Shown here: one piece after another, positions 1,739 through 16,498 of the stretch
How positions within the stretch are numbered: the first letter of the stretch is position 1
Layout: each line of letters begins with the position of its first letter
Assembly (NCBI GenBank): GCA_027083135.1
Contig: JALWQH010000043.1
Coordinates: 1 to 64,000, forward strand
From: Desulfurococcales archaeon
GTDB lineage: Archaea > Thermoproteota > Thermoprotei_A > Sulfolobales > WAQK01
DNA: 64,000 bases
Direction of reading: 5' to 3'
The notes under the pieces: generated by a model
The model's database searches: none
Seen by the model: the letters and a program-made list of their open reading frames with translations, nothing else
Told to the model about the DNA's origin: nothing
Program-made: the position numbers and the translations under genes

Positions 1739-2761
1739 CTAGCTTTGGAGAATTATTCTCCTCACACTTATGCTGGGATCAGGTATTCTTATACCTGCTT
1801 TCTTAAGCGTATCCTCTACTAGGTCTACGTGAATCTCATCCCTGAAGCCATAGTATTTTAAGCCATCCTTAACCAGGTCTGAGGGTATACCTACCTCGGC
1901 AGAGTACCATTCGATCCAGGTATACGGCTTCCTCTTAAACTCACTGATAGCTTCAGAATACACTGCACTTATCTTCTCTAAGAGGCTTCGGGGAACCCTG
2001 GTTGTGGAGGCAAGGGTACAGCAGTATTTTGCTCCAAGCTCATCGCATCCCACTAGGGGTTTGTAGCCGTATCTATATAGCTTGACGAAGAGGGGATGCC
2101 ATGCTACAATGTACCTGGGCTTCCCAAGCGCTGCAAGCCTTACCGCTTCCCAGGGCTCGTCGAAATATCTGGCCTGCCCCTCTTCGATTATCCCCTCCTT
2201 TAACGCCATGGCGCGGCAAAGATCCATTGTTGAAAGCCTACTAGAGGCAATGCCTCCCCAAGCTTCACTGCGTTCAAGCACAACTCCCCCGCCATAGGCT
2301 CCTCCACCCAGGATCCTCACCTCTCCGCCAGAGATCATTGAGGAGTAAAACTGGGTTACCAGGGGGCTTAGGGCGAGTTCAACCTCCCCTCTCAGGAGAG
2401 CCTGAGTAGCCTCAATAGCGCTTGGATAAACCCTAACCACAAGCCTTATCCCAAGCCTCCTTTCAAGAAGTTTGGCGAAGGGTGTTATGAAGGGATACTC
2501 GCTTGACCATACTAATCCAAGCCTAATCTTACCTTTAGGAGGCTTAACAGTGCTGGGGCTTGAGGAAAGCCTGACCAGATACTGGCTCCCCACTCTTATC
2601 CTCACTACAAGCCCCTCATCTTCAAGCATCCTTACAATTTCGCTTACCCTACTCTTAGATACTCCGAGAGCCCTATGAATATATGACTGCATCACGCCTC
2701 CAGGAATATCTTCAAGCAGCCTAAGTATCCTATCCCTAACGTTCACCAACACTATCTCCAA
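1739..2761 (-). CDS. One-component transcriptional regulator: winged helix plus substrate-binding-like domain, candidate NAD-pathway regulator
   Basis: A 340-residue protein with two parts. Residues about 5-70 read as a winged helix-turn-helix (recognition region around ALGVSKSRVSEIV, then a beta wing). Residues about 78-330 resemble a type 2 periplasmic solute-binding protein of the NMT1/THI5 or aliphatic-sulfonate kind (IRLGLVWSSEYPFI, then YPSAIEATQALLRGEVELALS), but with no signal peptide, so it would act as a cytoplasmic ligand sensor. The start is TTG at 2761; a GTG lies three codons downstream. It is divergent from nadA across 69 bases that contain a perfect palindrome, which suggests it controls the NAD genes and perhaps itself. 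The ligand is unknown; quinolinate, aspartate, nicotinate or NAD are guesses from context. Confidence 0.6.
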   Translation of the reverse strand: MEIVLVNVRDRILRLLEDIPGGVMQSYIHRALGVSKSRVSEIVRMLEDEGLVVRIRVGSQYLVRLSSSPSTVKPPKGKIRLGLVWSSEYPFITPFAKLLERRLGIRLVVRVYPSAIEATQALLRGEVELALSPLVTQFYSSMISGGEVRILGGGAYGGGVVLERSEAWGGIASSRLSTMDLCRAMALKEGIIEEGQARYFDEPWEAVRLAALGKPRYIVAWHPLFVKLYRYGYKPLVGCDELGAKYCCTLASTTRVPRSLLEKISAVYSEAISEFKRKPYTWIEWYSAEVGIPSDLVKDGLKYYGFRDEIHVDLVEDTLKKAGIRIPDPSISVRRIILQS

Positions 2762-2785
2762 AAACCATTATACTAGTTCTAATAG

Positions 2786-2819
2786 AAAAATTTATGTTTG
2801 ATATTGAACACTTGTTCAA
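2786..2819. promoter_or_regulatory. Divergent promoter with palindromic operator candidate (nadA / regulator)
   Basis: An AT-rich element at 2786-2795 (AAAAATTTAT) fits an archaeal TATA box about 40 bases before the nadA ATG, and read on the other strand it fits one for the regulator. Just downstream on the nadA side is a perfect inverted repeat, TTGAACA-CT-TGTTCAA (2804-2819), where the nadA transcript is expected to start. A protein bound there would block nadA transcription. The repeat is seen directly; its role as an operator is inferred. Confidence 0.55.
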
Positions 2820-2830
2820 ATTGATGAGAG

Positions 2831-3760
2831 ATGAGCAGCGATTATTTGGAGGAGCTTAAGAGGAGGATCAATGAGCTTAAGAAGCGTAGGAGAGCCATCA
2901 TACTTGCCCATAACTATCAGGTCCCGGAAGTACAGGATATAGCGGATTACGTTGGTGATAGCCTGGAGCTAGCCAAGAAAGCCATGAAAATAGAGGCTGA
3001 TGTAATAGTCTTGGCAGGAGTATACTTCATGGCTGAGACAGCCTCCATCCTTAACCCCGATAAAACCGTCCTTATACCTAATAGGCATGCAGGATGCCCG
3101 CTTGCATCCTTCCTAACGCCTAGAGATGCTAGGAAATACAAGGAGGAGAGGCCTGGAGCACCACTAGTATTATACATAAACTCATATGCCGATGCAAAAT
3201 ACTATGCCGACTATATTGTTACAAGTGCTTCCGCCGTGAAACTTGTAGGCAAGCTGGATGAGGATGAAGTGCTATTCGGCCCTGATAAGAACCTCGCATC
3301 ATACGTGGCGGAAACCACGGGTAAAAACATAGTTCCCGTCCCGCCTAACGGACACTGCCCCATCCACGAATACCTGGTCAATAAATATTGGGTTATGAAG
3401 GCTCTCCAAGAGCACCCCAGAGCAAAGCTCATACTGCATCCCGAAGCCCCACCGGAGGCTAGGAGGCTTGCACACGCCATAGGCAGTACAAGCCAGATGC
3501 TTAGAGCCATAGGCGAGCTCGGCGGAGAGGAATTCATCCTTGGAACCGAAGAAGGACTGGTCTATAGGGCTAGGAAAATGTATCCAGGTAAGAAGATATA
3601 CCCTGTCAACCATAGGGCTATATGCATAGATATGAAGAAAATAACGCTGAAGAACATTGCAGACTCGCTTGAGACAATGAGGCCTGTAGTAAAGGTGGAT
3701 GAACGCATAGCGGGGAGAGTTAGAGAGATATTAGAGGAGTCCTTCAGAATGGTGGGTTAG
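2831..3760 (+). CDS. nadA: Quinolinate synthase A
   Basis: A 309-residue NadA, which condenses iminoaspartate with dihydroxyacetone phosphate to quinolinate using a [4Fe-4S] cluster. The three cluster cysteines of the family are present: C89 (HAGCPLA), C176 (NGHCPIHEY) and C265 (HRAICIDMK). The N-terminal ILAHNYQVPEVQDIADYVGDSL block is typical of the family. The ATG at 2831 follows a GATGAGAG sequence and starts soon after the predicted transcription start. It is the first gene of a three-gene NAD operon; only two bases separate its stop from the TTG start of nadC. Confidence 0.95.
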   Translation: MSSDYLEELKRRINELKKRRRAIILAHNYQVPEVQDIADYVGDSLELAKKAMKIEADVIVLAGVYFMAETASILNPDKTVLIPNRHAGCPLASFLTPRDARKYKEERPGAPLVLYINSYADAKYYADYIVTSASAVKLVGKLDEDEVLFGPDKNLASYVAETTGKNIVPVPPNGHCPIHEYLVNKYWVMKALQEHPRAKLILHPEAPPEARRLAHAIGSTSQMLRAIGELGGEEFILGTEEGLVYRARKMYPGKKIYPVNHRAICIDMKKITLKNIADSLETMRPVVKVDERIAGRVREILEESFRMVG

Positions 3761-3762
3761 CC

Positions 3763-4623
3763 TTGGCTAGCCTCCTCCTAGAAAAAAGGTTCCTCGAGTG
3801 GCTGGGAGAAGATGCGCCGCTCGGAGACGTTACAAGCGAGGCCATAATTCCCGAAGGCTTAACTGTGAGAGCCGTTGTGGAGGCTGGGGAGGAAGGCATA
3901 GCTGCATGCGTTGAGGAAGCATCACTGATCCTCAGAAGCCTAGGCTTATCTGTAAGGCTGTATAAGAGGAGCGGTGAGAAAGTGGGGCGTGGAGATAGGA
4001 TCATGGAGCTTGAAGGCGATGCGCGTAAAATATTACTGGTTGAAAGAACCCTTCTAAACCTCTTAAGCTACCTCTTCGGAATAGCGACAACCACGCATCG
4101 CCTAGTTGAAAAAGCCCGCAGGATCAATCCTGCTGTAAGAATTGCTGCTACAAGGAAGGTTGTTCCAGGCCTCAGATACCTTGCTAAAAGAGCCGTGGAG
4201 ATAGGCGGTGGAGATACACATAGGCTGAGCCTAAGCGATGCTGTACTCGTAAAGGATAACCATCTTGTCATACTAGGCAGCGTTGAGGAGGCTGTTAGGA
4301 AGGCGAGGGAGAAGGCCAGCTTTACACATAAGATCGAAGTGGAGGTGGAGACCATGGAGGATGCAGTCAAAGCAGCTGAGGCTGGAGTAGATATAGTTAT
4401 GGCAGACAATTTTAATCCAGAATCGCTGGCCAGGCTGATCAGGGTTCTTGAGGAGAAAGGGCTGAGGGGAAAGGTGCTTGTCGAGGCTAGTGGAGGCATA
4501 GGCCCTGAGAACATAGAGGCTTACGTGAAGGCAGGGCCCGACATAATAAGCACAAGCTACATAACTATGAAGGCTCATCCAATAGACTTAAGCCTAGATA
4601 TAGTTGAGGTGAAGGAGCATTGA
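3763..4623 (+). CDS. nadC: Nicotinate-nucleotide pyrophosphorylase (quinolinate phosphoribosyltransferase)
   Basis: A 286-residue enzyme of usual length that converts quinolinate and PRPP to nicotinate mononucleotide, CO2 and pyrophosphate. Active-site blocks are visible: TRK at 129-131, HR at 152-153 within GGGDTHRLSLSD, KDNH at 163-166, then the EVEVETMEDA and EASGGIG strands of the C-terminal barrel. The start is TTG at 3763. The stop codon TGA (4621-4623) overlaps the TTG start of the next gene by TTGA, so the two are probably translationally coupled. Confidence 0.94.
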   Translation: MASLLLEKRFLEWLGEDAPLGDVTSEAIIPEGLTVRAVVEAGEEGIAACVEEASLILRSLGLSVRLYKRSGEKVGRGDRIMELEGDARKILLVERTLLNLLSYLFGIATTTHRLVEKARRINPAVRIAATRKVVPGLRYLAKRAVEIGGGDTHRLSLSDAVLVKDNHLVILGSVEEAVRKAREKASFTHKIEVEVETMEDAVKAAEAGVDIVMADNFNPESLARLIRVLEEKGLRGKVLVEASGGIGPENIEAYVKAGPDIISTSYITMKAHPIDLSLDIVEVKEH

Positions 4624-5435
4624 CAAGGAGGATAGCTATAATTGGCTGCGGAAACATAGGCGGAGAGCTAGCAGCAGCCATTGATAGGGGGGTCATAAAA
4701 GCCAGGCTCACATCACTATACGATGTGGTTAGAAGCAAGTGCATAGAACTTGCAGCCAGGCTTAGCCGTGAAAAACCAATAGTGGCGGAAAGCATAGAGG
4801 AAATGCTTGCAGCTAAGCCCGACATAGTAGTTGAGGCTGCAAGCCAGGCGGCTGTAAGGGAACACGGGCTTAAAATACTTCTAGCAGGAGCTGACCTCAT
4901 GATAATGAGCGTAGGAGCGCTTCTAGACGAGGAGCTGCGCTCAAGGCTTGAAGAAGCCTCTAGGAGAACGGGGGCAAGAATCCATATACCCTCAGGAGCT
5001 ATTGGCGGATTAGATGCTGTGAGGGCATTAAGGCTTGCAGGCATAGATAAAGTAACCCTGAGGACAAGGAAGCCTCCAGCAGCATTGAAGAACGCTCCTG
5101 GAGCAGCAGGAGTAAAGCTGGAGGGAATTAGAAGGCCGGAGACACTGTTCAGAGGCCCCGCAAGCAAAGCTGTAAAGCTCTTCCCAGCCAATGTGAACGT
5201 TGCAGCTACGCTCACCCTCATGTCAGGTGTAGAGCCCATAGTGGAAGTAATAGCTGATCCCATGGCAAGCGGAAACATTCATGAAATAATAATTGAGTCA
5301 AAAGCATCTAAGATGAAAATACAGGTTATAAACAAGCCTAGCCCGGCTAATCCTAAGACAAGCTACTTAGCAGTACTTTCAGCAGTAGAGGCTCTGAGAA
5401 GCCTAGCCTCCGAGGAAAAGATCCCGTGGGCCTAG
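4620..5435 (+). CDS. nadX: L-aspartate dehydrogenase (NadX type)
   Basis: A 271-residue protein with an N-terminal Rossmann motif (GCGNIG, residues 9-14) and the family's C-terminal block DPMASGNIHEI, with H221 as the likely catalytic histidine. It makes iminoaspartate from aspartate with NAD(P)+, feeding NadA, and replaces the bacterial oxidase NadB. With nadA and nadC it completes de novo synthesis of nicotinate mononucleotide from aspartate. The start is TTG at 4620, overlapping the nadC stop by four bases. Confidence 0.9.
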   Translation: MTRRIAIIGCGNIGGELAAAIDRGVIKARLTSLYDVVRSKCIELAARLSREKPIVAESIEEMLAAKPDIVVEAASQAAVREHGLKILLAGADLMIMSVGALLDEELRSRLEEASRRTGARIHIPSGAIGGLDAVRALRLAGIDKVTLRTRKPPAALKNAPGAAGVKLEGIRRPETLFRGPASKAVKLFPANVNVAATLTLMSGVEPIVEVIADPMASGNIHEIIIESKASKMKIQVINKPSPANPKTSYLAVLSAVEALRSLASEEKIPWA

Positions 5436-14648: not shown

Positions 14649-14722
14649 AATTGCTGTCCACGGGTTATTTATACTCCGGGCAAGGAAGGTTGAATTCATA
14701 GTTGCATGGAGAGTGGGAGTAG

Positions 14723-16498
14723 ATGAATGCAGAGCCTAGCAGCGAGGTATCCCCTGAGAATATCAGGGAGTTAGTGTTGAAACATGCCCTGGCTAATGCT
14801 GTTGCACATGGAGGCAAGGCATCTCCAGGAGCTGTTATGGGCAAGGTCATAGCCGAGCGCCCTGAACTGAGAATACATGCGCGGAGAATAGCTGAGATAG
14901 TGGCCCAGGTGGTAAGGGAAGTCAATGCTATGAGTGTGGAGGAACAGCGAAGAATAGTGGAGGAAAGATGGCCTGAGCTGCTCGGCAGGAGAAAGGTGAG
15001 ATCAGAGGAGAAGCTTGAACTCCCACCACTACCCAACGCTGTGCCAGGCCATGTTAAAACGAGATTTGCGCCTAATCCCGACTTCGTCCTACATATTGGT
15101 AATGCTAGGCCTGCAGTGCTGAGCTACGAGTATGCCTCCATGTATAAAGGCTCAATGGTGCTGAGATTCGAGGATACTGATCCTCGTACTAAGAGGCCTC
15201 TACCCGAATCATATAGGGCTATAAAAGAGGATCTAAGGTGGCTGGGTATAAAATGGGATGAAGAGTACGTGCAGTCTCTTAGAATGAGCATCTATTATAG
15301 GATAGCGGCTGAGCTGATAAGGCGTGGAGGAGCATATGTAGACACCTGCAGCTCCAATGAGTTCAATAAATATAGAATTGCAGGTAAGCCGTGTCCGCAT
15401 AGGGAGAGAAGCGTAGAGGAGCAGCTTGAAGATTGGGATAAAATGCTTTCAGGCAATTATGGTGAGGGGGAAGCTGTTCTCAGAGTTAAAACTGATTTAC
15501 ACTATCCTGATCCCTCTGTCCGCGACTGGGTGGCATTCAGAATAATAGATACTTCCCGTACACCTCACCCTCTGGTTGGAGACAAGTACTCTGTGTGGCC
15601 GACCTACAATTTCGCCGCAGCTGTTGATGATCACCTCATGGGTGTGACCCACATTCTGCGTGGAAAGGAGCATGCGACAAACACTGTTAAGCAGAAATTC
15701 CTCTACAGCCACCTAGGATGGAGGTATCCTGAGACTGTTCATTTTGGGAGGCTGCGGCTGGAAGGCTTCATGATGAGTAAGTCGAGGATAAGGGAGCTTC
15801 TAGAATCAAGGCCTGGAGAATATGAAGGGTTCAGTGACCCGAGATTCGGAACCCTGGCAGCGCTTAGGGCCAGAGGCTTCCTACCAGAAGCTATTAGGAG
15901 AATCATACTTCATGTTGGAGTAAAAGGCGTGGATGCAACCATAAGCTTCGAAAACCTGGCTGCAATGAATAGGAAAATCCTGGATCCATTGGCTGACAGA
16001 TACATGTTTGTAAGCAATCCAGTTAAACTAGTAGTGGAAAACATGCCTCCAAGCCTCGAAGCAAGGATCCCCTATCATCCATCAAAACCTGAGAAGGGGG
16101 GAAGGAGGCTACTCGTACATGCAGGGGAACCCATTTACATCTCATCAAACGATAAGAGGCTATTTGAATCACACAAGCTTGTAAGGCTCATGGAGCTAGG
16201 CAATGTCACACCCATAGAGATCGGGGAGAATATCGTGGTATGCAGGTTTCATAGCAGGTCGTTGGAGGAGGCTAGGAGGCATAATGCACCCATAGTACAA
16301 TGGGTGCCTGAGAACTCCTCTATCCCCGTAGTCGTCAAGAAGCCTGCTGGGGACAGGCTGCTTAGAATTAGGGGGCTAGGCGAGCATCACCTCGCAAAGC
16401 TGGCTCCCGGCGCTCAGATCCAATTCCTCAGGTTCGGCTTCGTCAAGCTCAGCAGCATTAGATCAGACATCATTGAAGCATACTATACCCATCCCTAG
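14723..16498 (+). CDS. gltX: Glutamyl-tRNA synthetase (archaeal, class I)
   Basis: A 591-residue enzyme of the archaeal GluRS/GlnRS branch that charges tRNA-Glu (and probably tRNA-Gln in organisms using the amidotransferase). The HIGH motif reads HIGN within [19 protein letters not shown], and the KMSKS motif reads MMSKS. The beta-barrel anticodon domain follows residue about 400. ATG at 14723 has GTGGGAG upstream. The N-terminal roughly 100 residues are the helical extension typical of archaeal forms. Confidence 0.95.

Follow-up and report, generated by a model that had tools for sequence, protein, structure and literature searches.

A predicted winged-helix repressor of NAD supply with a transport-type substrate-binding domain in Thermoproteia

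The regulator gene and the nadA-nadC-nadX operon

The DNA stretch analysed here (64,000 nucleotides, called the window throughout) comes from a Desulfurococcales archaeon and carries near one end a regulator gene and the genes for de novo NAD synthesis in divergent orientation:

1739..2761, (-) strand: regulator ORF, 340 aa, TTG start (translation might instead begin a few codons inside)
2762..2830: divergent intergenic region, 69 bp between the start codons of the regulator gene and nadA
2790..2798, (+) strand: TATA-like box ATTTATGTT of nadA, from sequence inspection, weak consensus
2804..2819: predicted operator TTGAACACTTGTTCAA, with the core also found in CCGAACACTTGTTCGG of regulator-SSS promoters (see below)
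2831..3760, (+) strand: nadA, quinolinate synthase, predicted target
3763..4623, (+) strand: nadC, quinolinate phosphoribosyltransferase, nadA operon
4620..5435, (+) strand: nadX, aspartate dehydrogenase, nadA operon

All three nad genes score above their NCBIfam equivalog cut-offs. The arrangement described in the initial annotation, a regulator facing nadA-nadC-nadX across 69 bases, holds. An aldehyde dehydrogenase gene (39-1592, (-) strand) lies 147 bp downstream of the regulator gene on the same strand; no evidence ties it to the system.

A winged helix joined to a transport-type binding domain

The winged helix of the regulator occupies residues 8-64 and is of the DUF7343/MarR type, exceeding the Pfam cut-offs (E 1.6e-11; 44.3 bits vs a cut-off of 27.6 for DUF7343 and 29.9 vs 27 for MarR_2). 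The C-terminal part is nearly invisible to sequence searches, in which it matches Phosphonate-bd at E 0.05, and a PDB sequence search with the full-length protein returned no meaningful relative. In an AlphaFold2 model whose input was the window protein together with five relatives (mean pLDDT 81.7, pTM 0.75), residues 76-340 adopt the periplasmic-binding-protein fold of SsuA/TauA/NrtA/CmpA/Thi5 (Foldseek E 1.3e-14), the best superposition being with 3un6 (VIA Z 24.7, rmsd 3.3 over 260 residues). Model, Foldseek search and superposition thus delimit a C-terminal sensor domain of the substrate-binding-protein (SBP) type at about residues 76-340. The winged helix lies at the very N terminus and leaves no room for a signal peptide, which places the SBP domain in the cytosol. 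Both the fusion of a winged helix to a solute-binding-like domain and the lack of a signal peptide, as initially proposed, are therefore borne out.

An invariant Cys-Cys pair (residues 247-248, in the context CCT or CCL) is kept in nearly all aligned homologues, as are two motifs, SSxSTMD and W(H/E)P; these residues could possibly form a ligand or metal site.

The closest structural likenesses are with the SBPs of the NMT1/SsuA/TauA/NrtA/CmpA group and with Thi5, which have the same fold as the C-terminal domain, superposing on it with Z 19-25 over 250-264 residues at only 9-17% identity. These are mostly secreted transport proteins or enzymes, whereas the regulator has its SBP domain in the cytosol, attached to a winged helix. 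LysR-type regulators such as OxyR and LysG, which also appear in the Foldseek list, similarly combine a helix-turn-helix (HTH) with a periplasmic-binding-protein-like sensor, but over the full length they superpose poorly on the regulator (rmsd 14-21 A), whose HTH is of the MarR/DUF7343 type. Among archaeal one-component regulators of vitamin and cofactor genes, ThiR and RbkR have effector domains derived from enzymes (ThiN and riboflavin kinase, respectively), unlike the SBP-derived sensor described here.

Bacterial regulators of NAD metabolism are built differently, as the initial annotation had stated: NiaR has a 3H domain, NrtR a Nudix domain, and NadR adenylyltransferase/kinase domains. 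In the regulator, neither the 3H domain (Pfam) nor the Nudix domain is matched at E<=1, and profile searches likewise matched none of the NMN adenylyltransferase and ribosylnicotinamide kinase domains of enterobacterial NadR. In bacteria, NiaR, NrtR, and NadR repress genes for the synthesis and salvage of NAD; NiaR, whose targets also include niacin transporters, responds to nicotinate (PMC6800001). NadQ (COG4111), predicted as an NAD regulator of Proteobacteria, has the operator ttATRCTCannntGAGYATaa (PMC5343134). It resembles the present case in that a palindrome at de novo NAD genes was predicted by comparative genomics, with NadQ often clustered with its targets, but it is set apart, by its description, by an NrtR-type C-terminal HTH and a unique N-terminal domain, and its operator differs from the palindrome CGAACAnnTGTTCG reported below. 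Searches of the open-access literature returned no NAD regulator from archaea.

Gene neighbourhood of the regulator in Thermoproteia

Many heat-loving archaea encode this protein. Of 229 genomes surveyed in the class, 123 match the regulator at least in part; nadA occurs in 62. The window genome is the only one of the 229 in which the two genes are divergently paired, and conservation of this pairing in other crenarchaea, which had been put forward as a check, is thus absent; two genomes of the same family (G001 and G002) have nadA and lack the regulator. The commonest neighbour of regulator orthologues is instead a head-to-head gene for a sodium:solute symporter (SSS/SLC5) transporter, usually across a gap of 140-300 bp, while deeper homologues adjoin folE, trpS, or alaS. 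Among the latter, head-to-head arrangements are seen with trpS, encoding tryptophanyl-tRNA synthetase (L061, L066, and L067), and with alaS, encoding alanyl-tRNA synthetase (L062 and L069).

A second linkage of the regulator to the nad operon, with a different geometry, occurs in two genomes: at the 3' end of nadA-nadC-nadX, G156 has an intact regulator gene in convergent orientation (L101:648-1667, (+) strand), and G033 has a C-terminal regulator remnant placed in the same way (L077:6866-7111, (-) strand).

Relatives located beside unrelated genes had been named in advance as a sign against an NAD role, and SSS, folE, trpS, and alaS are literally such genes; yet the regulon evidence favours the NAD role, and the reading drawn from neighbourhood alone, i.e., that the regulator is not concerned with NAD, was overturned by the operator analysis. 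Pairing with nadA is a local feature, the regulon extends further than first thought, and a transporter is the usual partner.

A conserved palindrome that co-occurs with the regulator

Regulator-SSS promoters have in common the palindrome CGAACAnnTGTTCG, e.g., CCGAACACTTGTTCGG. A matrix derived only from these intergenic sites, leaving out sequences of the window and of the Sulfolobus-type family f11, was run on the region from -200 to +20 of nadA in 60 genomes, a score of 5 bits or more being counted as a site. Of the 31 regulator-bearing genomes, 25 have a site at the nadA promoter; of the 29 regulator-less ones, none does (Mann-Whitney p 9e-11, a value that is optimistic because the genomes are related). 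In many site-bearing genomes, including 18 of the Sulfolobus type, the regulator gene is distant from nadA. One such case is G041, with the regulator at 1260279-1261169, nadA at 14715-15608, and the site AATTGAACATATGTTCGATT.

The contrast recurs within five families. In f1, the window has a site at nadA while G001 and G002 have none; in f2, G173 has one and G166, G023, and G182 do not; in f6, four of five genomes have it, the exception being G095; in f10, it is present in G140 and missing from five others. In f11, finally, all 18 regulator-bearing genomes have a nadA site and the regulator-less G204 has none; in the f11 loci that were read, the regulator is next to folE, far from nadA. G140 additionally has sites at both the SSS and the nadA promoters, on separate contigs. 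Operator and regulator thus co-occur, and the proposal that this protein is a regulator of archaeal NAD synthesis gains support from these counts and from further sites at nadB and nicotinamidase-like genes (see below).

In genus g4 of family f3, the SSS and nadA promoters share the variant TTAAACGTTTGTTTAA or a sequence near it, and the recognition helix reads SKxYISxVL in place of SKSRVSEIL. Sites of g4 match only as this variant motif, and G153 carries the variant without a detected regulator. In that genome, nadA is in two pieces (G153:C73:21358-22238, L183) with the g4-type operator variant still upstream, perhaps a sign of a decaying pathway.

In the window, the operator TTGAACACTTGTTCAA scores 9.7 bits with the SSS-promoter matrix, below most other sites. 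Of 20,000 dinucleotide-shuffled versions of the 69-bp region, 11 reach this score, as do four of the ~64,000 window positions. Elsewhere in the genome of the window organism, GAACAnnTGTTC has 5 further matches, all within or across ORFs, which look like chance occurrences. Since a single site lies within a shared divergent region, the window copy might only regulate its own gene and leave nadA uncontrolled in this organism. We regard this as very improbable: the site is separated from the nadA ATG by 11 bp and from the regulator start by 42 bp, and f11 genomes and G140 have the nadA site without a regulator gene nearby.

The position of the operator also bears on the sign of the regulation. 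The centre of the TATA-like box ATTTATGTT is ~17 bp upstream of that of the window operator, and many aligned promoters have a TATA-like stretch ~17-25 bp upstream of the operator centre, although positions further upstream also occur and all were scored against a loose consensus. With this spacing, the palindrome would fall at or just before the transcription start, which suggests repression. Activation often goes with divergent promoters and with sensors of the SBP type, as in LysR-type proteins, and the regulator could be an activator or a dual regulator of NAD genes; given that the site is usually downstream of the TATA-like box, loose as its consensus is, and near or overlapping the start region, this seems unlikely, and repression is the reading we retain.

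The SSS transporter as a probable niacin importer

The best HMM matches of the SSS gene, panF, putP, and mctP, define its superfamily; the window genome itself has no SSF-family gene. Only 12 of the 102 genomes with an SSS orthologue have nadA, a negative association (Fisher p 5e-4 with f11 left out) that has no counterpart for the control gene thiC. The nicotinate phosphoribosyltransferase model PRK08662 is matched in nearly all genomes, so that imported nicotinate could be used, and human SLC5A8, of the same superfamily, carries nicotinate (PMC6412771). The simplest reading is that the SSS transporter is probably a niacin importer.

Alternatively, the regulator might serve only an SSS transporter of unrelated substrate, e.g., pantothenate, a monocarboxylate, HMP/thiamine, or an amino acid, its adjacency to nadA in the window being accidental. 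The frequency of SSS as a neighbour, its HMM matches, and the presence of thiD, thiB, or upp near some loci would fit, but the palindrome is found at nadA, mostly far from both SSS and the regulator, with the distribution given above, and SSS anti-correlates with nadA and not with thiC; we therefore give this alternative very little weight. A role in thiamine or HMP metabolism in particular, considered on account of the Thi5-like SBP fold and of thiD and thiB near some loci, was rejected on the same thiC comparison and because the operators are at nad genes.

Between the operator and the SSS gene lies a conserved, unannotated membrane ORF of ~60 aa (motif PY..L, FW; no Pfam match), for instance in L038, L042, L188:2644-2829, and L192:2032-2226. 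It may be a small transporter subunit.

Other predicted targets

Among the matches listed, several f11 genomes have sites between the divergent nadA and nadB genes, nadB being identified by TIGR00551 as best match, slightly under cut-off. In two f5 genomes (G016 and G026), sites precede isochorismatase-family, nicotinamidase-like genes; these score 55 bits vs a nicotinamidase equivalog cut-off of 174, which makes PncA as a target only a lead. Unlinked SSS genes with the small membrane ORF are preceded by sites in G006, G016, and G026. In G026, a strong operator also stands before the start of a multi-spanning membrane protein without Pfam match, truncated where the contig stops (L190:1945 to contig end), possibly an alternative importer. 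Membership of pncB in the regulon was considered and not retained, as the pncB loci of two f11 genomes have no site of 12 bits or more; pncB is in any case uninformative because it is present in nearly all genomes.

A model for the control of NAD supply

Taken together, these data make it highly likely that the regulator is a cytosolic one-component repressor of NAD supply in Thermoproteia (Crenarchaea); DNA binding, repression, the ligand, and the transporter substrate are what we infer from them. The winged helix, probably as a dimer, would bind the palindrome downstream of the TATA box and ahead of the target gene's start, a typical position for an archaeal repressor, while the SBP-type domain would sense a small molecule of the pathway and set the affinity for DNA, with nicotinate, nicotinamide, quinolinate, or NAD as candidate ligands. 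In the window organism, the regulator would control nadA-nadC-nadX and possibly its own gene; in relatives, the predicted targets are nadA, nadB, nicotinamidase-like genes, and the SSS transporter. De novo genes would thus be the targets in prototrophs, and the probable niacin importer in auxotrophs.

With less assurance, though still on balance in its favour, we propose that these proteins form a new family of archaeal NAD regulators, in which a transport-type substrate-binding domain joined to a winged helix acts as an intracellular sensor of niacin or NAD precursors. Its regulon would shift between nadA/nadB/nadC/nadX in prototrophs and the SSS niacin importer with its small membrane protein in auxotrophs. 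The regulator would be an example of a binding domain of the uptake type put to new use as a sensor inside the cell. It comes with a named operator and a regulon that can be tested in culturable Sulfolobus-type species, and, for archaea in which de novo NAD synthesis seems to be missing, it points to a candidate SLC5-family niacin importer.
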